From NCBI GenBank assembly GCA_017743475.1, contig JAGHYV010000004.1:25813-89812 (forward strand): a stretch of DNA of 64,000 nucleotides. Reading direction: 5' to 3'. Positions 22,023 to 32,882 of this stretch are shown here, piece by piece. Source of the DNA: Roseiflexus sp. Its GTDB lineage: Bacteria; Chloroflexota; Chloroflexia; Chloroflexales; Roseiflexaceae. Within the stretch, counting starts at the first letter, position 1. Each line of letters begins with the position of its first letter. Position numbers and translations under genes: made by a program. The notes below the pieces were generated by a model. It did no database searches and was not told the origin of the DNA. It was given only the letters and a program-made list of their open reading frames with translations.

Positions 22023-22156
22023 ACTGTGTACAACCCTCCCAATTACGATCTGTCATCGTGTAATGCAGGACTGAAGAACGATTGATCCTCCTTCCTGCGT
22101 TCATTACAATACGCGACCGGAAAACGGAAGAGCACTACATCGCCACGAGCACTGCG

Positions 22157-25100
22157 ATGAACGCTGCTGATCCGCTGCGATCAGCACATGTTGTGCGGCG
22201 CATTGTTCTCAGTTTCGCACTAACGATCGGCCTGATCGCTGCGATTGCATTAATCTCCTACGGCTGGACGCAACTCCTCTTTGCTGCTGAACGGGGGCGC
22301 GTGGATCTGGTTATCGCTAGCACGCGACAACATGCGCTCTCACAGCGTATCGCATTATCGGCTGAGCGCCTGATGGCTACGTCTGACCCGGAAGATGCCG
22401 CCCGTGCGCGCACGACTCTGAGCGAAGCAATCGATGAGATGACGCAGCAGCATGAGAACCTGATCCGCGCTGTCGCATCGCTGCCACGTGACGATCCACA
22501 CGCACAGGCGATCCGCCGCCTCTACTTCGATCCGCCAGCGTCGCTCGACGCGCGCGTGCAGGAGTACCTGGAGTATGCACAGCGCCTGCATGACGCTCAG
22601 AGTCCGCAACACTCTGATCTGCTGGCGATCCAACATGCAGCGCTATATGATCTGCCGAGCCTCTTCGACACGGCAACCCGTCTGTACAGTGACGAGCGGC
22701 GCGCCCTTTTGTCCACAATGGATGCGATGCATGCTGTTGTCTTTGGCATGGTACTGATAGTGCTGATGCTGGAGGGCGTATTCATCGTGCGACCGATGGT
22801 GCGACAGACGCAACAGTACATCGCACAGCGCGACGAAAGTGAAGCGCGTTTGCGCGCCCGCGAAGCAGTAACGCGTGCTCTATACGATATAACCTCAACC
22901 ACACAGATGGATTACCTTCAAAAGGTGCAGGCGCTGCTTGCTATGGGGTGTGACTACTTCCGGATGATTACCGGCATACTCACCAGAATCGATGGCGAAG
23001 AACTGGAGGTCGTTGCAGCGCATCAACCTCCTGAGCACCTGGCACCCGGTCAGCGCTTTGCGCGTGCCGATAGTTACTGCACTGCCGTTCTGGAGTCCTG
23101 CACGCCGGTTGGCATCAACCACGCTGGGCGCTCTGCTTGGCGCGATCACCGCTGCTACGCGCTTCAGCGCATGGAAGCATACATCGGCGCACCAGTGCGG
23201 ATGCGGGGCGTAACGGTCGGCACGCTCTGTTTTGCCAGCACCACACCCCGTCAGGCGCCATTCACCGATGGAGATTACGATCTGATCCGCCTCATGGCGC
23301 AATGGATTGGCAGTGAACAGGATCGCTTGCAGACCGAAGCCGCGCTGCGCGAGAGCGAGGAGCGCTTCGCTCTGCTTGCAAGCGTCACAACCGAAGGAGT
23401 CGTTATCAGCGAGCAGGGGATAATTGTTGACGCAAATGCTGCTGCCAGCGCACTGCTCGGTTGCCCGCTTGAACAACTGCGCGGCAGGTCGGTATTCGAG
23501 TTCACAACTCCCGAAGGGCGAGAAAAAGTCGCTCACGCGCTTGCCACTGGATATGATCATCCCTATGAGGTGCTTGCCCGCCGGAGTGATGGAACCCTCT
23601 TTCCAGCAGAGGTAACCGGACGGAACATCCCCTATTACGGACGGACAGCGCGCGTGACGACCATCCGCGACATGTCGCGTCAGCGCCTCGCGGAAGCCGC
23701 CTTGCGTGCCAGTGAAGAACGCTTCCGCCAGTTAGCGGAGAATGTCAACCAGGTCTTCTGGATCTGCACTCCGGCGCTCGATCAGGTGCTATATGTCAAT
23801 CCGGCGTACGAACGCATCTGGGGACGATCCTGCGACAGTCTGTACGCTCAACCGGCATCGTTGTTCGAGGCGATTGTTCCGGAGGATCGCGAGCGCGTTC
23901 TTGCACTCCACAATGCCGAATATCATCGTGGATACAGCATCGAATTCCAGATTCGGCGGGACGATGGTCAGTCACGCTGGATTCTGACCCGCACTTTTCC
24001 AGTAGTGAACGAGGCAGGAGTCATCTATCGTATCGCTGCTATCTCGGAAGATGTGACCGGACGCAGGCAGGCGGAGGAAGAGCTACGCGCGACATTGGCA
24101 GCGCTTGAGACGCAATATCACGCAGCAGATCGCGCCCAGAGTGAGATGCGCGCAATCCTCGACGCTTCCAGTGAAGCAATCGCGCTCCTGGCGCCTGATG
24201 GCACGTTCCTGACGGTCAATCGCTGTTTCTTCGACATGTTCGGCACGACCGCAGAACGTGTGCTCGGACAGCGACTGGCAGACATGTATGCCGCCATCCG
24301 GCAGATCTTCGACAATGCTGATGAATTGTACATTCGTATGTACCATGCCCTTCAGGATACTCAGACTATTTTCCACGAACGCGTGTCGCAGCGTAAACCG
24401 CAGCAACGTGAACTGGCAATCTTTTCTTCGCCGGTATGGACAGCTAACCAGACGCACCTCGGGCGCCTTTACATCTTTCGCGATGTTACACACGAACGCG
24501 CCGTTGAGCGGATGAAATCTGAATTCGTGGCAATGGTGTCGCACGAACTACGCACACCGCTGACCTCGATCAAAGGGTACGTGGATATGCTGCTCGATGG
24601 CGATGCAGGACTGCTTGCCGATGAGCACCTGGAACTCCTGCGCATTGTCAAATCGAATGCTGATCGCCTGCTACTGCTGATCAACGATCTCCTCGACATG
24701 TCAAAGATCGAAGCAGGAAAACTGTCGCTCCACCGCATTCCGCTCGATCTCCGCCCGCTCATCTGGCAGGTCGCTGCCGCCCTGCGACCGCATCTCGATG
24801 CAAAGCAGCAACGCCTGACCCTTGATCTGCCAGAGACCTCACCGGATGGTTCAGCCCCGCTTATCGCAGGCGATGCGGCGCGTCTGAGTCAGATTCTGAC
24901 CAATCTTCTCTCCAATGCGATCAAGTATACTCCTCAAAACGGCGAGATTACAATCCGCCTGACAAAAGAACCACCCTGGCTCTGCATCGCCGTCCAGGAT
25001 ACCGGCATTGGCATGACACTCGAAGAACAGGATCATATTTTTGATCGCTTCTACCGTGCACGCAACCGCGCAACCCGTGAAACCAGCGGAACAGGACTCG

Positions 25101-25276
25101 GTCTGGCAATCACTCGTTCACTTGTCGAACTTCATGATGGACGGATTACAGTTGAAAGCCAGCCAGGACACGGTTCGACATTTCGTGTCTATATTCCGCT
25201 GTTAGAGTATGTCGATCAGCACGACAACGCCCTAACAGCAACGCGGACCGATGGCAGGGAAGAGCGTGATGGATGA
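22157..25276 (+). CDS. Membrane sensor histidine kinase with GAF and multiple PAS domains
   Basis: N-terminal TM/helical sensor, GAF region, PAS repeats, FVAMVSHELRTPLTSIKGYVDML (H-box), NLLSNAIKYTPQNGEI, DTGIGM, GTGLGLAITRSLVELH. Confidence 0.93.
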   Translation: MNAADPLRSAHVVRRIVLSFALTIGLIAAIALISYGWTQLLFAAERGRVDLVIASTRQHALSQRIALSAERLMATSDPEDAARARTTLSEAIDEMTQQHENLIRAVASLPRDDPHAQAIRRLYFDPPASLDARVQEYLEYAQRLHDAQSPQHSDLLAIQHAALYDLPSLFDTATRLYSDERRALLSTMDAMHAVVFGMVLIVLMLEGVFIVRPMVRQTQQYIAQRDESEARLRAREAVTRALYDITSTTQMDYLQKVQALLAMGCDYFRMITGILTRIDGEELEVVAAHQPPEHLAPGQRFARADSYCTAVLESCTPVGINHAGRSAWRDHRCYALQRMEAYIGAPVRMRGVTVGTLCFASTTPRQAPFTDGDYDLIRLMAQWIGSEQDRLQTEAALRESEERFALLASVTTEGVVISEQGIIVDANAAASALLGCPLEQLRGRSVFEFTTPEGREKVAHALATGYDHPYEVLARRSDGTLFPAEVTGRNIPYYGRTARVTTIRDMSRQRLAEAALRASEERFRQLAENVNQVFWICTPALDQVLYVNPAYERIWGRSCDSLYAQPASLFEAIVPEDRERVLALHNAEYHRGYSIEFQIRRDDGQSRWILTRTFPVVNEAGVIYRIAAISEDVTGRRQAEEELRATLAALETQYHAADRAQSEMRAILDASSEAIALLAPDGTFLTVNRCFFDMFGTTAERVLGQRLADMYAAIRQIFDNADELYIRMYHALQDTQTIFHERVSQRKPQQRELAIFSSPVWTANQTHLGRLYIFRDVTHERAVERMKSEFVAMVSHELRTPLTSIKGYVDMLLDGDAGLLADEHLELLRIVKSNADRLLLLINDLLDMSKIEAGKLSLHRIPLDLRPLIWQVAAALRPHLDAKQQRLTLDLPETSPDGSAPLIAGDAARLSQILTNLLSNAIKYTPQNGEITIRLTKEPPWLCIAVQDTGIGMTLEEQDHIFDRFYRARNRATRETSGTGLGLAITRSLVELHDGRITVESQPGHGSTFRVYIPLLEYVDQHDNALTATRTDGREERDG

Positions 25277-25463
25277 TCTGTCGCTATGGGTTGATACAAA
25301 CGTACGACTGGTGCGACGCATTTTGGGTGGTTGATGATGATCCGGACATCAATTTATATATCGGAGAGGAAGAGCGTAATGGATGATCCGTTGCTATGGG
25401 TCAATACAAACGCGCAACCGGTGCGGCGCATCCTGGTGGTTGATGATGATCCGGACATCAATC
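25255..25463 (+). repeat. Imperfect tandem duplication, 110-bp period, of the 5' end of the response-regulator gene
   Basis: gaagagcgtgATGGATGATctgtcgctatgggttgatacaaacg... (from ~25258) repeated as gaagagcgtaATGGATGATccgttgctatgggtcaatacaaacg... (from ~25368). Confidence 0.88.
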
Positions 25464-26554
25464 GCCTTCTGCGCGTCCGTCTGACTGCACGCGGGTATGA
25501 GGTGGCTACCGCTGCAAGCGGTGAGGAGGCGCTGGAACTCCTGTCAGAAACACCTGCTGATATTGTGTTTCTCGATATCTCCCTGCCCGGCGTGAGCGGT
25601 TTGCAAACCCTAGCGGAAGTGCGTCGACGCGGGATGGATACTGCGGTCATTATGACCACTGCCTTCGGCTCGGAGCAGATCGCAGTCGAGGCGTTACGCC
25701 AGGGCGCCAACGACTATCTGCGTAAGCCATTCGAGTCAGACGAGTTTTGTCGTGTGTTGAAGCGCACAGTGCAGTGGCTCGAACTTGAGCGTCAGAACCG
25801 GCTGCTGCGCCGGCACCTGGAAGCGCATCACCGCCGTCTGAAGAGCGAGCTGGCGCGTGCCGCTGAGGTGCAGGCGCGGTTGTTGCCGCAGATGGCGCCA
25901 GCACTAACTGGGTTTCAACTCGCTGCCGAATGCATCCCTGCCCGTGATGTCGGCGGCGACTTTTACGACTGGCAGCAACCTCAACCGCATCTGCTCAGTT
26001 TCTGGCTCTGTGATGTCATGGGGAAGGGAATCGATGCAGCGCTCCTCATGGCGACGGTACGCGCCGTTATGCGCGCAGTCGTGCGTCGTAGCCCGCCTGC
26101 CGAAGCAATGCGCTACGTAACGAATGCGCTCATCGATGACCTGGTACAGTCAGGACGGTTCGTTACCCTCTTCCTGGCGCAACTCGATACCAGCAGCGGA
26201 CGCCTCGCCTCAATCGATGCAGGACACGGGTTAGCCTTTGTGCGACGCGCCGATGGAACGGTCGAGACTCTCGATGACCAGCGTGGTCTGCCGCTTGGCG
26301 TGCTTCCCGACGAGCAGTACGCTCAACGCGAAACAGTGCTCGCTCCGGGGGATGCTCTGATCGTCTACAGCGATGGGCTGGTCGATGCGCGCGTCGATCT
26401 CGATCTGACGCCGCACGTTCTGGCGAGTCATCTCTACGGCGCAACTAGTGCATTGGCGATGCTCGACCGCCTGGTGACGCTGCTGGCGCCGGTGCAGACA
26501 CCGCCTGATGATATGACGCTGCTGGTGGTGTATCGGAAGACTGGTCAGGGATGA
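25379..26554 (+). CDS. Response regulator with C-terminal PP2C/SpoIIE-type serine phosphatase
   Basis: Receiver: RRILVVDDDPDINRLL...DIVFLDISLPG...RKPF; phosphatase: QARLLPQ...GGDFYDW...DVMGKGIDAALLMA...YSDGLVDAR. Confidence 0.93.
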   Translation: MDDPLLWVNTNAQPVRRILVVDDDPDINRLLRVRLTARGYEVATAASGEEALELLSETPADIVFLDISLPGVSGLQTLAEVRRRGMDTAVIMTTAFGSEQIAVEALRQGANDYLRKPFESDEFCRVLKRTVQWLELERQNRLLRRHLEAHHRRLKSELARAAEVQARLLPQMAPALTGFQLAAECIPARDVGGDFYDWQQPQPHLLSFWLCDVMGKGIDAALLMATVRAVMRAVVRRSPPAEAMRYVTNALIDDLVQSGRFVTLFLAQLDTSSGRLASIDAGHGLAFVRRADGTVETLDDQRGLPLGVLPDEQYAQRETVLAPGDALIVYSDGLVDARVDLDLTPHVLASHLYGATSALAMLDRLVTLLAPVQTPPDDMTLLVVYRKTGQG

Positions 26555-26731: not shown

Positions 26732-28888
26732 ATGCACATCTCCTGTTACCATCACCGCATCCGTACACACTTGAGCCTGGCATGGGCGCTTCTGTTCCTG
26801 AGCGTCCTCATGTTGAACACTGCGCCCTCCAGCGCTGCGGCTGCGGCACGGTTGTCGTCCGAACCGAGGACATATCGCTTCGCCGATCTTGGCTACGGCG
26901 ACCGGACGGCGCGAACGATGTATGGCAGTCTGGATTATTTCTTTCCGGTTCCCGCCGGTGAAGAACCACTCGAAGGCGCGCGCCTGGAACTGATCTACAG
27001 CCACTCGCCGCTGCTGCTGCCGGAACGCTCGACAATGACCATTATCGTCAATGGTCTGTCGGTGCAGAGCGTGCGACTCACGCCAGACACCCGGACGAGA
27101 GCATCATTGACCGTGCCGCTGCCACCAGACCTGTTCAGCGGCGAGGGGTTCTTTGTGCAGGTGCGTTTCTACATGCGTCTGACTCGTGACGAGTGCGAAG
27201 AGACCCGCAATCCGGCGTTGTGGGCGACCATCCACGGCGACTCGCGCCTTGTGCTGCCGACGCGACCGGTCAGCACATACCGCCTGGAGCATCTCGACCG
27301 CCTGTTCCGTCCCCCGCCCGATGATCGTCCACCACTGACGCTGGTTATCCCGCCATCACCATCGCCCGAAGAACTGGAAGCGGCCGGGCTGATTGCGTTT
27401 CAGTTGGGACGCTGGGCGGCTGCCGTTCGCGCCGACTCGCGTCTCGACGTCGCTACGACCGTGCCCGACACTGCCAGCATCGTTATCGGAAGCGCACCCG
27501 CGCTGGCAGGGATGCTGCCATGGGGCGCCGTCGATTGGAACGGAACTGCGGTGACCATCAACGGCATTGCCATTCCCATAGATCACGGCGCCCTTGCGCT
27601 GGCGAACGACGGAACGCCACGCCTCCTCGTCACCGGCGCAACCCCGGCGGCAGTCCGCCTTGCTGCACGTACTCTCGTCACGCCGGAACGACGCGCCCTG
27701 CTTGATGGCGCGTATGTGGCGATTACCGATGCGCCGGTTGCCACAACGACGCTGGCGCCCTGGGTGAACGGCGCTGCCAGTTTCGCTCAACTCAATGTTC
27801 CAGAGCGGGTTGTGAACGGTTCTGGCGAGCATCGCATCGACCTGGGGTTCACCCGCCCCGCCGGGTGGCGTTTACGCGACGGCAGCACACTGACGCTCGA
27901 CGTGGAAGTGACCCCGGCAGTGCGCCGTGAAACGTCCTGGATTGCCGCCAGCGTCAATGGCATCGATCTGGGAGCGCAGCCGCTGCGGTTCGACACGGAT
28001 CGCCCTCAGCGGTATTCGTTCGCCCTGCCTGCCGATCTGCTCACCACAACCCTCGACGGCAGATCGATGCGCACCCTCGACCTGACCGTGCGCCTGTTTC
28101 TCGATCCGCCTGAGGAGGGGTGCGTTGTCGTCGATGGCGATAGTCTGCGCGCGACGTTGCTCCCCACCTCGGCGTGGCGTCTGCCGCACGACGTTATTTC
28201 GACGCTCGATCTCGGTCGGTTTCCCACACCCATGCTGAGCATCGATTCCCGTCTGCCGCTGACCGTGGTGTTGCCGCAACAACCCAACACAGCGGAGTAT
28301 GCCGCAGCGTTGCGCCTGATAGCGGCATCAGGTCGATGGGCGGACACCGACAGCATACCGGCGCCACAGCTGACCACTGCCGATCGTCTGGAAGAGCGCA
28401 GTGGGCGGCATCTCGTCCTGATTGGCAGTGCGGAACGCAATCCTATCAGCGCCGAAGCAATAGCCCGCCAACCAAATCGCCTAGCGCTACTCCAGGCTGT
28501 CGTCTACCGTCCCGACGACAATGGGCAGTGTCGCCTGCTGCTCACCCCTTCGCCCTGGCAACGCGACGCTGCGCTGCTCCTGATCGACGGTGCAACGCCG
28601 GAGGATCTGACCATCGGGGTTGCTGCGTTTGAACGCCGTGAAACCATCGAGCGTCTGCGCGGTCCGCTTGCGCTGATTCGCATCAATGCACTGCCCCAGA
28701 ACAGTGCTGGTGCATCAGATGTCGCTCCTCCGCCGATCAGTCTCATACCGCAGATCGAAACACCGCTGCTAGAGCGATTACCCGGCTGGCAGATCGCAGG
28801 CGCCGTGTTACTCGGTGCGTTTTTGAGCGCACTTGTTATTCTGCTAACCATTCAGGTGCGACAACGAACGCGACGGAAAACGCCATGA
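26732..28888 (+). CDS. BcsB-like cellulose synthase accessory/regulatory subunit
   Basis: Signal peptide, long beta-rich periplasmic region with YSHSPLLLPERSTMTIIVNG, single C-terminal TM; followed by GT2 synthase. Confidence 0.82.
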   Translation: MHISCYHHRIRTHLSLAWALLFLSVLMLNTAPSSAAAAARLSSEPRTYRFADLGYGDRTARTMYGSLDYFFPVPAGEEPLEGARLELIYSHSPLLLPERSTMTIIVNGLSVQSVRLTPDTRTRASLTVPLPPDLFSGEGFFVQVRFYMRLTRDECEETRNPALWATIHGDSRLVLPTRPVSTYRLEHLDRLFRPPPDDRPPLTLVIPPSPSPEELEAAGLIAFQLGRWAAAVRADSRLDVATTVPDTASIVIGSAPALAGMLPWGAVDWNGTAVTINGIAIPIDHGALALANDGTPRLLVTGATPAAVRLAARTLVTPERRALLDGAYVAITDAPVATTTLAPWVNGAASFAQLNVPERVVNGSGEHRIDLGFTRPAGWRLRDGSTLTLDVEVTPAVRRETSWIAASVNGIDLGAQPLRFDTDRPQRYSFALPADLLTTTLDGRSMRTLDLTVRLFLDPPEEGCVVVDGDSLRATLLPTSAWRLPHDVISTLDLGRFPTPMLSIDSRLPLTVVLPQQPNTAEYAAALRLIAASGRWADTDSIPAPQLTTADRLEERSGRHLVLIGSAERNPISAEAIARQPNRLALLQAVVYRPDDNGQCRLLLTPSPWQRDAALLLIDGATPEDLTIGVAAFERRETIERLRGPLALIRINALPQNSAGASDVAPPPISLIPQIETPLLERLPGWQIAGAVLLGAFLSALVILLTIQVRQRTRRKTP

Positions 28889-29050
28889 ATGAGTCCACCG
28901 CAAAAAGGCTACATTACCGCAGAGGCGCAGCGTTCATAGAGGAAAATGCCATATCGTGTCGCTCAAACGCACGCTTCGCCGCACGTACATTTCATTTTTG
29001 AAGTTCTCTGTGCTCTCCGCATCTTGGCGGTACGTTTTTGCAGTGAAGTC

Positions 29051-31084
29051 ATGAATCGTTTCGTCCAGAAACTGCTGCCCGAAGACCCCGATCTGCGCGC
29101 AGAATTGCGCCTGGGATTGCTGCGCGTGCTCGTTGCCGCTAATCTGCTCCTCGGCTTCCTGTATCTGAGCTGGCGCTACTCTGCAACGATCAACTGGGCC
29201 GCCTGGCCCATCGCCATTGGTCTGGTGATTGCCGAAACATACAGTTATATTGACGCATGGCTGTTTGGGCTGACTCTCTGGAAACTGAAGCAGCGCGGCG
29301 AACCGCCGCCACCGCCCCCCAACGCAACTGTCGATGTCTTCATCACCTGCTACAACGAACCAGTTGAGATTGTGCGCGAAACAGCGATCGCTGCACGCGA
29401 CATTCGTTACCCGCACCGCACCTACCTGCTCGACGACGGCAATTCGCCAGCGATGCAGGCAATGGCAGAGGAGATCGGGATCCGGTATCTGGTACGCTCC
29501 GAGGAATGGAAAGGAAAACAGCGCCACGCCAAGGCAGGCAACCTAAATAACGCTCTCTGCCACACCAATGGCGAATTTGTGCTGGTGCTGGACGCCGATC
29601 AGATCCCATCACCCCATATTCTCGATCGCACGCTTGGATACTTTGCCGATGAGCGTGTAGCGCTGGTGCAAACACCACAATGGTTCTACAACGTTCCCCC
29701 AGACGACCCGCTTGGCAGCCAGGCGCCGCTCTTCTACGGTCCCATTATGCAGGGAAAAGATGGCTGGAACGCAGCGTTCTTCTGTGGATCGAACGCTGTC
29801 CTGCGCCGCGAGGCGCTCATGCAGATCGGCATCGCCAATTATGTGCGCGACCTGGAACTGCGGGTGCAGCGCGCCCTGCGCACCGCCGATACCCTGCTGC
29901 ACAAGGCTGCGCAACAGGTGAAGACCGCCGGGAATCAGGCGCTTCAGGCGGCCATTGACGAATTGCATGCTGCCGTGCGCACGAGTCGTCGCATGTTGCG
30001 CGAGGGACGCCCCATCCAGGAAGTCACCTGGTACTTCCAGCAGTGCGCTGCCGCCGCCGCGCGCCCAATTGTTGCCGACGACCTGGCGCGCCTGCGCGAC
30101 GAACTGACGACCATCCCCGGACTCGAAGGGGATGATGACCTCACCTCAACGCTGAGCCGGTCGCTCGATGACGAAGCGATCCTGCATACACTGACGACGC
30201 GCGAACGCTCGCCGCTGGCAGCCATTGCCACCGTGCGCGAGTTGCTGCTGGCGGTTGATATCGACCGCGCTGATGAAGCGCAACCGGTGATGCCGCTGGC
30301 AACGATCTCGGTGACCGAAGACATGGCGACGGCGATGCGTCTGCACGCCGCAGGGTGGCGTTCCGTCTATCATCATGAAATCCTGGCGCGCGGTCTGGCG
30401 CCAGAGGATCTCCGCTCGGCGCTCCAGCAACGCCTCCGCTGGGCACAGGGAACGATCCAGGTGATGCTGCGCGAAAATCCACTCTTCATACCGGGGTTGT
30501 GCTGGGGACAGCGCCTGATGTACTTTGCCACCATGTGGAGTTATCTTTCCGGTTTTTTTAGCGTTATCTACCTATCCGCGCCGATCTTCTACCTGATCTT
30601 TGGAATGCTGCCGGTGCGCACGCAGGCGGACGAATTTTTCTGGCGGCTCGTGCCCTACCTGATCACAAACGAACTGGTCTTCGCAGTAGCTGGATGGAAA
30701 CTGTCCACCTGGCGCGGAAGGCAGTACAGTTTGGCGCTCTTCCCACTCTGGATCCGGGCAGTCATCAGCGCCATCGGCAATGTGTACGCCGGACGACCGC
30801 TTGGTTTTGTTGTGACGCCAAAAGTACGTCAAGGAGGCACGCCTCTCTGGGGCGTATTGCGCCTGGTGCGGATCCAGCTCATCACCATAGCGCTCCTGGT
30901 GCTGGCTGCCGTATGGGGATTAACGCGACTGGCGTTAGGCTGGCAGATTGAAGGCATTCCAACACTGGTCAATGTCTTCTGGATCGGGTATGATTTGCTT
31001 ATGTTGAGCGTGGTGATCGACGCGGCGCTCTATCAACCGGACGAACAGGAACAACCTATGTCGGTGGCTGCGTCAGCAGCATAG
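29051..31084 (+). CDS. GT2 processive glycosyltransferase, cellulose-synthase-like, with large internal insertion
   Basis: VDVFITCYNEP, DDGNS, VLDADQIPS, FFCGSNAVLRREAL, VTEDMATAMRLHAAGW, QQRLRWAQGT; multiple TM. Confidence 0.9.
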   Translation: MNRFVQKLLPEDPDLRAELRLGLLRVLVAANLLLGFLYLSWRYSATINWAAWPIAIGLVIAETYSYIDAWLFGLTLWKLKQRGEPPPPPPNATVDVFITCYNEPVEIVRETAIAARDIRYPHRTYLLDDGNSPAMQAMAEEIGIRYLVRSEEWKGKQRHAKAGNLNNALCHTNGEFVLVLDADQIPSPHILDRTLGYFADERVALVQTPQWFYNVPPDDPLGSQAPLFYGPIMQGKDGWNAAFFCGSNAVLRREALMQIGIANYVRDLELRVQRALRTADTLLHKAAQQVKTAGNQALQAAIDELHAAVRTSRRMLREGRPIQEVTWYFQQCAAAAARPIVADDLARLRDELTTIPGLEGDDDLTSTLSRSLDDEAILHTLTTRERSPLAAIATVRELLLAVDIDRADEAQPVMPLATISVTEDMATAMRLHAAGWRSVYHHEILARGLAPEDLRSALQQRLRWAQGTIQVMLRENPLFIPGLCWGQRLMYFATMWSYLSGFFSVIYLSAPIFYLIFGMLPVRTQADEFFWRLVPYLITNELVFAVAGWKLSTWRGRQYSLALFPLWIRAVISAIGNVYAGRPLGFVVTPKVRQGGTPLWGVLRLVRIQLITIALLVLAAVWGLTRLALGWQIEGIPTLVNVFWIGYDLLMLSVVIDAALYQPDEQEQPMSVAASAA

Positions 31085-31209: not shown

Positions 31210-31563
31210 ATGATACTCCAGATCGAACAGGGCGATGATGGGGTCACAATCGTGCGTATGGAAGGTCGACTGGATCTGCTGACAGCTGCCGATGTCAAGC
31301 ATGATCTCACTGACCTGGTTGCCGATGGCCGGCGACGGCTGATTTTCGACCTGGAACGGGTCAGTTTTGTGGACAGTTCTGGGCTTGGCGCGCTGATCAG
31401 CAGCTTGAAGGCTGCGCGACAGGCAGGCGGTGATCTGCGGATCGCGCGGGCCAATGAGCAGGTTCGCACATTGCTGAAATTGACAACCCTCGAACGGGTG
31501 TTGCGACCCTACGAGACTATCGAGGAGGCTCGTGCTGGCTACACCTCGATCGCTGCTGATTGA
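31210..31563 (+). CDS. STAS-domain anti-anti-sigma factor (RsbV/SpoIIAA-like)
   Basis: LIFDLERVSFVDSSGLGALISSLKAARQAGGDLRIARANEQVRTLLKLTTLERV. Confidence 0.93.
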   Translation: MILQIEQGDDGVTIVRMEGRLDLLTAADVKHDLTDLVADGRRRLIFDLERVSFVDSSGLGALISSLKAARQAGGDLRIARANEQVRTLLKLTTLERVLRPYETIEEARAGYTSIAAD

Positions 31564-32017
31564 AGCACAGGTTGCCACACAGACAATGGCAGAGGGTCTC
31601 GATGCCATGCACCATCTGCTGGCATGCTTCTGGGAAGACGCGGCACGCATCGACTATCTGCCCTCTGAAACGTGGCGACACCTGTTTACAACGGCGCTGG
31701 CGGAGGTTGTGGCGAATGGTTTGCGCCATGCGTATGCCCCCGAGACGCCTGAGCGCCCGTTGCGGTTGCGGCTGCGCCTCTTTCCAGATCGCGTCGAGGC
31801 GCTCCTGATCGATCAGGGCGAGCCGTACCGTTCAGCGCCCTGCACCACGAACCTGCCCGATGATCGTGTTGACATCGCAGACCTGCCAGAGAGCGGGTAT
31901 GGATTGAGCATCGCGTATGCAGCACTCGATATGGTGCGCTACCATCGCACGCGTGGCGGGTACAATTGCTGGAAACTGGTCAAAAAATTGCAGCAGAAGC
32001 ACAAAAGTAAATCTTGA
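31532..32017 (+). CDS. ATP-binding protein, RsbW/SpoIIAB-like HATPase
   Basis: TALAEVVANGLRHAYAP (N-box), LLIDQGEPYR, SGYGLSIAYAALDMVRY; overlaps the STAS gene by 32 bp. Confidence 0.85.
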   Translation: MLATPRSLLIEAQVATQTMAEGLDAMHHLLACFWEDAARIDYLPSETWRHLFTTALAEVVANGLRHAYAPETPERPLRLRLRLFPDRVEALLIDQGEPYRSAPCTTNLPDDRVDIADLPESGYGLSIAYAALDMVRYHRTRGGYNCWKLVKKLQQKHKSKS

Positions 32018-32099
32018 TTTACCACACGCAGTGGTATATACTTGCGACGGTATGCGTTTGCGCTGCCGTCACAACCATGCACGCAAAGGAGGCTTCCAG

Positions 32100-32882
32100 A
32101 TGGCTAATACGCAGACCCGTCGCGCTGCACCTGATCTCCAATCGTCGAGTGATTCGTCTACGATGCTTGCGCCGCGCAAGCGCGCGATGCCATTGTGGGG
32201 GTGGTCGCGCAATCAGACGCAGGCGCAGGTGGATAGCAGGCAACCACAGCGCGGTTCGCGTCTGACGTCCTTCTGGAAGGCATTGATCATCACATCATTT
32301 GTGATCAACATTGTGCTGCTGACAGTGGTGCTGTTGCTTGTCGGGTTCATTGTTCAATGGCGACAGCAGATCACATCGACTGCCATGCTGGGGCAGGGGT
32401 TTGCTGCCGATAATGTCGCCGAACTGCGCAGCATCGTCGCTGGATTGCAGGGCGCAACGATTCGTACTACGATCCCGCTCGATCAACCGCTGCCATTGAA
32501 GGGCGCTGGCGTGATCGTGCCGGTTGATCAGCAGACGACAGTAACACTGGTCGAACCAGTTCCATTGCAGTTGAGCGGAGCAGATATCGATCTCGGCAAC
32601 GGCAATCGCCTGCGCGCTAATAATATCCGCCTTACCTTGCCAGCAGGAACGCCGTTGCGCATTGCGCTAAAGATGGATATTCCGCTCGACGACGTCACCA
32701 TTCCGGTGCGCCTCAACGTACCGGTCGAAATACCGCTCAAGGATACCGAACTCGGTCCACAATTCCAGCGTCTGGGATGGCTGGTGGATCGTCTTGTCGG
32801 TCCCCTCGCGCCAGTATTGGGACTCGACCCGATTCCGCCTGCGCCGCCAGCGCCACGCTATCAACCATCATCACAACCATGA
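32100..32882 (+). CDS. Single-TM membrane protein of unknown function
   Basis: Start ATG at 32100 (MANTQTRRAAPDLQ); TM FWKALIITSFVINIVLLTVVLLLVGFIV; Pro-rich C-terminus. Confidence 0.75.
   Translation: MANTQTRRAAPDLQSSSDSSTMLAPRKRAMPLWGWSRNQTQAQVDSRQPQRGSRLTSFWKALIITSFVINIVLLTVVLLLVGFIVQWRQQITSTAMLGQGFAADNVAELRSIVAGLQGATIRTTIPLDQPLPLKGAGVIVPVDQQTTVTLVEPVPLQLSGADIDLGNGNRLRANNIRLTLPAGTPLRIALKMDIPLDDVTIPVRLNVPVEIPLKDTELGPQFQRLGWLVDRLVGPLAPVLGLDPIPPAPPAPRYQPSSQP

Follow-up and report, generated by a model that had tools for sequence, protein, structure and literature searches.

The closest described relatives of the enzyme discussed here are the BcsA-type cellulose synthases (TIGR03030; PDB 4p00 and 9b8v). 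They combine a GT2 core, recognizable by its DDG, DxD, TED and QxxRW motifs and an FxVTxK gating loop, with a C-terminal PilZ domain (RxxxR and (D/N)xSxxG) that constitutes a c-di-GMP-dependent switch. In the plant synthases, CesA, a cytosolic extension called the class-specific region (CSR) occupies the slot between the DxD (U2) and TED (U3) blocks (PMC12430437). The CSR is described as largely disordered and mediates trimer-trimer interaction (PMC12077881). Yet another layout is found in cyanobacteria, where PilZ-less synthases carry an extra module in the catalytic domain, i.e., in the PCR slot between DDG and DxD (PMC12430437).

Partner switches, such as RsbU-RsbV-RsbW, SpoIIAA-SpoIIAB, SypE-SypA and HmpUVW, are built from a phosphatase, a STAS protein and a kinase. 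Sigma factors are the classical control target of RsbV/RsbW pairs. SypA of Vibrio and HmpV of Nostoc affect biofilm or polysaccharide formation, although their direct target was not identified (PMC4517449, PMC8256260). A literature search for partner switching of a cellulose synthase returned two incidental co-mentions and no paper treating the subject.

The locus described here lies in a 64,000-nucleotide stretch of DNA from Roseiflexus sp. (Chloroflexota), hereafter called the window. As read from the sequence, it encodes a BcsA-like synthase that lacks PilZ and bears a helical module in the CSR slot, and all genes of a partner switch belong to the same operon. Its features are as follows.

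22082..25276, + strand: GAF/PAS sensor histidine kinase that may feed into the response-regulator phosphatase
25331..26554, + strand: response regulator fused to a SpoIIE/PP2C phosphatase (RsbU-like)
26732..28888, + strand: BcsB, periplasmic partner subunit (PF03170)
28946..29050, + strand: in-frame 5' extension that would add 35 aa, stems from a dispersed repeat and is probably untranslated
29051..31084, + strand: BcsA-like GT2 synthase, membrane-embedded, 677 aa when counted from the likely start codon, without PilZ
29819..30304, + strand: helical insert, a 162-residue slot between AVLRREAL and ISVTED, ~154 residues beyond BcsA, at the position of the class-specific region of plant CesA
31210..31563, + strand: STAS protein (RsbV/SpoIIAA-like) with a conserved DSSG serine
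31532..32017, + strand: HATPase_c_2 protein (RsbW/SpoIIAB-like serine kinase), its gene overlapping that of the STAS protein

In the window, the sensor kinase gene comes first, followed by those for the response regulator-SpoIIE phosphatase and BcsB and then by the synthase, STAS and HATPase genes. Downstream of the HATPase gene, at 32097-32882, lies a gene that is conserved in Roseiflexus and encodes a hydrophobic segment near its start; it matches no Pfam family above cut-off and was found neither in Chloroflexus nor in the other carriers.

The synthase and its gene

The GT2 reading frame is open throughout positions 28946-31084 of the + strand (712 aa). A dispersed repeat is located at 28889-29050, between bcsB and the synthase gene. 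Residues 1-35 of the reading frame match this repeat, which occurs at many places in the window's genome (G000) and in that of a close relative (G002). Because the first 35 codons consist of repeat and the orthologues begin near position 29051, this position is probably the true start, giving a protein of 677 aa. Gene callers may have set the start too early owing to the repeat.

All catalytic motifs of the BcsA type are present, i.e., DDG, DAD, TED, QRLRW and, in the gating loop, FVVTPK. An AlphaFold2 model built on a 35-sequence alignment was fair overall (mean pLDDT 80.8, pTM 0.80); the fold resembles that of BcsA, and the nearest solved structures are those of BcsA and plant CesA. A further likeness to BcsA systems is that BcsB is encoded upstream of the synthase in Roseiflexus and Chloroflexus, the only insert-bearing genera in which it adjoins the synthase gene. 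In contrast to BcsA, the protein lacks the C-terminal PilZ motifs, scores 352.7 bits against TIGR03030, where the curated cut-off is 699.1, and contains about 154 extra residues before TED. The putative product is cellulose, a beta-1,4-glucan made from UDP-glucose. A search of the window's genome with this synthase revealed it as the only strong BcsA-like GT2. The same genome encodes a second BcsB homologue (G000:C143:54330-56093), distant from the synthase locus.

A helical insert between DxD and TED

The slot at 29819-30304, which lies between FFCGSNAVLRREAL and SVTED, measures 162 residues, whereas it consists of 8 residues in BcsA of E. coli, Azospirillum and Caballeronia and in a PilZ-type cyanobacterial synthase. 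A phmmer comparison with E. coli BcsA aligned two blocks of the 712-aa reading frame, namely residues 61-295 and 452-692. These are almost contiguous in the E. coli protein (chain 447 to 450), and, since BcsA is nearly continuous across the gap, residues 296-451 are extra. The initial annotation had proposed, at practically the same coordinates, an insertion of ~155 residues before TED that would be helical, and both statements are borne out. In the AlphaFold2 model, the insert is nearly wholly helical (block pLDDT about 50-92), with helices at residues 253-293, 296-317, 322-337, 342-352, 364-371, 375-383 and 388-401 in the 677-aa numbering. The first of these is 41 residues long and continues from the VLRR segment. 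Model confidence drops from about 80-90 at the start of the insert to 50-70 at its end. Modelled alone, the insert was predicted less well (pLDDT 67), with three long helices at about 77-90 and the remainder low.

Sixteen orthologues carry the insert at the same position and in the same reading frame, at insert identities of 40-98%. It is retained in 17/17 aligned members, the window included, over a length of 153-167 residues, and it contains invariant motifs, e.g., SPLAA. Between Roseiflexus species, identity is about 79% in the insert vs. 91% in the rest of the protein; between Roseiflexus and Chloroflexus, these values are about 42 and 68%, respectively, and for comparisons with the other carriers in Chloroflexota 51-54 and 61-66%. 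As omega inside the insert is 0.04-0.19 in within-genus pairs, the insert is under purifying selection. It is real and no artefact, though it evolves faster than the core. It is best explained as a folded, cytosolic helical module that defines its lineage.

Searches for relatives of the insert gave little. No Pfam family matches it, and the matches in NCBIfam were weak and far below cut-off. A profile search of the PDB yielded chance helical proteins only (best E 0.018), with no match to any CesA at E values up to 10. A Foldseek search with the insert alone, a weak model given its pLDDT of 67, returned for the most part helical bundles that were either designed or generic, and no hit reached E ≤0.001. 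The resemblance to the plant CSR is one of position and character: both are inserted between DxD and TED and are cytosolic, and the CSR has helical ends (PMC12077881, PMC12430437). The bacterial module differs from the CSR in that it shows no detectable sequence similarity, is not accompanied by an insertion in the PCR slot and is encoded next to partner-switch genes. With a bacterial module in the plant CSR slot, the use of this position becomes comparable across kingdoms.

Distribution and ancestry

A scan of 84,980 species (one genome each), made from the insert alignment with two short patterns that very divergent inserts could escape, yielded 13 confirmed loci, all in Chloroflexota and all inside this GT2 synthase; one of these is in a record titled Thermomicrobiales that is now filed apart by NCBI. 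A search of 400 Chloroflexota genomes, together with profile searches of two further classes, found the insert in Roseiflexus, Chloroflexus and three genomes from two other classes. Altogether, the carriers comprise Roseiflexus and Chloroflexus plus four scattered members of the Chloroflexota that lie outside the Chloroflexales; the family thus belongs to bacteria of hot springs and to related bacteria. The specificity of the insert to a lineage, as proposed earlier, is supported, and a check for its wide occurrence in BcsA with a known function was negative.

In a tree calculated without the insert columns, every carrier falls within one clade; judged by this phylogeny, the insert has a single origin. 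The carriers outside the Chloroflexales are scattered at similar core identity, which suggests that transfer between lineages may have occurred. Plasmid-borne spread was rejected, since none of the plasmid records covers the insert.

The closest insert-less relative found is a synthase encoded on plasmid pn1 of Nostoc sp. UHCC 0926 (L091), which is sister to the insert clade with 98% SH-aLRT support. In this locus (L091:7771-15149), the synthase gene is followed by genes for PIG-L, STAS, SpoIIE, a response regulator and HATPase, and the STAS, SpoIIE, HATPase and response-regulator genes all lie within about 6 kb of the synthase gene. The enzyme is devoid of PilZ, its CSR slot measures 30 residues, and it has ~100 extra residues in the PCR slot, the distance from DDG to DxD being 135 residues vs. 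31 in the Roseiflexus synthase. It fits the layout of the PilZ-less cyanobacterial PCR-domain synthases, i.e., no PilZ and an extra module in the catalytic domain (PMC12430437), here with STAS, SpoIIE and HATPase genes nearby. The insert is comparable to that module in being an addition to a PilZ-less catalytic domain, but it is located in the DxD-TED slot instead of the DDG-DxD slot. Homology of the insert to the extra residues in the PCR slot of the Nostoc protein was considered and rejected, since the two modules show no similarity.

The insert is, thus, not the sole marker of linkage to a partner switch. As the Nostoc plasmid carries the switch genes close to an insert-less synthase, this linkage may be older than the insert, and cyanobacteria may more widely rely on partner switches in making polysaccharides. 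The order GT2, PIG-L deacetylase, STAS is common to the Nostoc locus and one Chloroflexota carrier (L060). In the latter, a gene of the PIG-L (GlcNAc-PI de-N-acetylase) family is located between those for the synthase and STAS (L060:11209-12945), which hints that amino sugars may be present in the polymer.

Partner-switch genes and the role of the insert

Wherever an insert-bearing locus extends downstream of the synthase (12/12), STAS and HATPase genes follow; because the insert arose once, these counts are not independent and represent a single event that was kept. The same profiles detected STAS and HATPase in 0/20 insert-less BcsA-like loci of Chloroflexota, a few of which have short flanks. 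On the other side of the synthase, most insert-bearing loci contain a SpoIIE phosphatase gene, the exception being L062, where a histidine kinase takes its place. The phospho-acceptor serine of STAS, the kinase boxes of HATPase and the acidic motifs of SpoIIE are conserved. Hence, the set corresponds to RsbU, RsbV and RsbW with intact motifs. It differs from the described RsbU-RsbV-RsbW, SypE-SypA and HmpUVW systems by its fixed position beside an insert-bearing synthase in genomes where no SigB/F/G factor passes cut-off. The GT2, STAS and HATPase genes stay together also in lineages without BcsB in the operon or the genome. BcsB was not found in genome-wide searches of two insert-bearing genomes, G267 and G204, and it is a periplasmic protein; docking of BcsB is, therefore, unlikely to be the main role of the insert. 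After removal of the divergence of the synthase core, distances in the insert correlated with those in STAS at r 0.67 (permutation p 0.01) and with those in HATPase at r 0.66 (p 0.02) in a partial mirror-tree test, an exploratory analysis of six lineages.

No PilZ domain was found in the insert-bearing synthases scanned. Among 35 aligned synthases, 13 have the PilZ motif, and all of these are insert-less. A search of eight genomes of Roseiflexus and Chloroflexus likewise gave no PilZ. On the best reading of these data, the synthase would have moved from c-di-GMP/PilZ control to partner-switch control, with the insert as a regulatory or assembly module, and direct docking of the switch proteins is what we infer. 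The initial annotation had already suggested a docking or regulatory module; the neighbourhood counts, the absence of PilZ and the STAS content of G267 (see below) speak for it, whereas the Nostoc locus shows that the linkage as such is not unique to the insert.

More specifically, the insert can tentatively be regarded as the most likely acting site of the co-encoded partner-switch proteins on this PilZ-less BcsA-like synthase. Information would flow from the sensor kinase, which would phosphorylate the response-regulator SpoIIE phosphatase; the latter would dephosphorylate STAS at the DSSG serine, and unphosphorylated STAS would then capture the RsbW-like HATPase. Otherwise, HATPase, or perhaps free STAS, would bind the insert beside the TED region and hold the synthase off, or on, both the docking and its sign being presumed. 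That such binding in the CSR slot gates catalysis post-translationally and replaces the c-di-GMP/PilZ switch of BcsA is conceivable, if somewhat more doubtful than the location of the acting site. With its well-defined extra domain, the family would in this way provide a specific candidate for what STAS proteins act on in the control of polysaccharide, in organisms whose genomes yielded no PilZ.

The main alternative is an assembly function analogous to that of the CSR, in which the insert mediates synthase-synthase contacts, clustering or chain bundling while the partner switch acts elsewhere. The slot is identical to that of the plant CSR, which mediates interactions between CesA trimers (PMC12077881, PMC12430437), and the long helices of the insert would suit such a role. 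However, the PDB search detected no CesA related in sequence, the CSR is described as largely disordered, whereas the three long helices of the insert are moderately well predicted, and the linkage to STAS and HATPase would be left unexplained. An assembly function is, all in all, rather unlikely.

Slightly less probable still is that the partner switch controls transcription via a sigma factor, its proximity to the synthase gene reflecting co-regulation, and that the insert has a local role in shaping the active-site entrance or stabilizing the enzyme. Sigma factors are what RsbV/RsbW pairs classically act upon, gene neighbourhood is silent on direct binding, and the Nostoc locus shows the linkage without the insert. 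Against it, the usual target of RsbW is not evident, since none of 11 insert-bearing genomes encodes a SigB/F/G-family factor above the strict TIGR02980 cut-off, although all 11 contain other sigma-70 factors that match this model at lower scores; with so strict a cut-off, the missing match weakly favors a non-sigma target for the RsbW-like protein. Moreover, no sigma-factor family is among the 25 most frequent Pfam families of 60 neighbouring proteins, a ranking in which a sigma factor that occurs once would be missed. In G267 (94% complete), both STAS models gave a single STAS protein genome-wide, and its gene adjoins that of the insert-bearing synthase. Roseiflexus and Chloroflexus each have about 30 other STAS domains, so that other STAS targets are possible there. 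Finally, a tolerated surface insertion of little function, as its faster evolution relative to the core might suggest, is very improbable in view of the low omega values, the retention in all aligned members and the invariant motifs.

The proposed shift to partner-switch control need not mean that c-di-GMP has become irrelevant. Total loss of c-di-GMP signalling was rejected as the explanation for the absence of PilZ, since GGDEF proteins are present in the Roseiflexus and Chloroflexus genomes and, in Chloroflexus, GGDEF is fused to the SpoIIE phosphatase. Directly upstream of bcsB in Chloroflexus (L063:1454-4285 and its equivalents in other members of the genus), a 944-aa reading frame encodes Hpt, three receiver domains, GGDEF and the SpoIIE phosphatase, placing c-di-GMP synthesis and the partner-switch phosphatase on a single polypeptide. 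Because this phosphatase gene has a GGDEF domain, c-di-GMP may still enter the partner-switch circuit in Chloroflexus.
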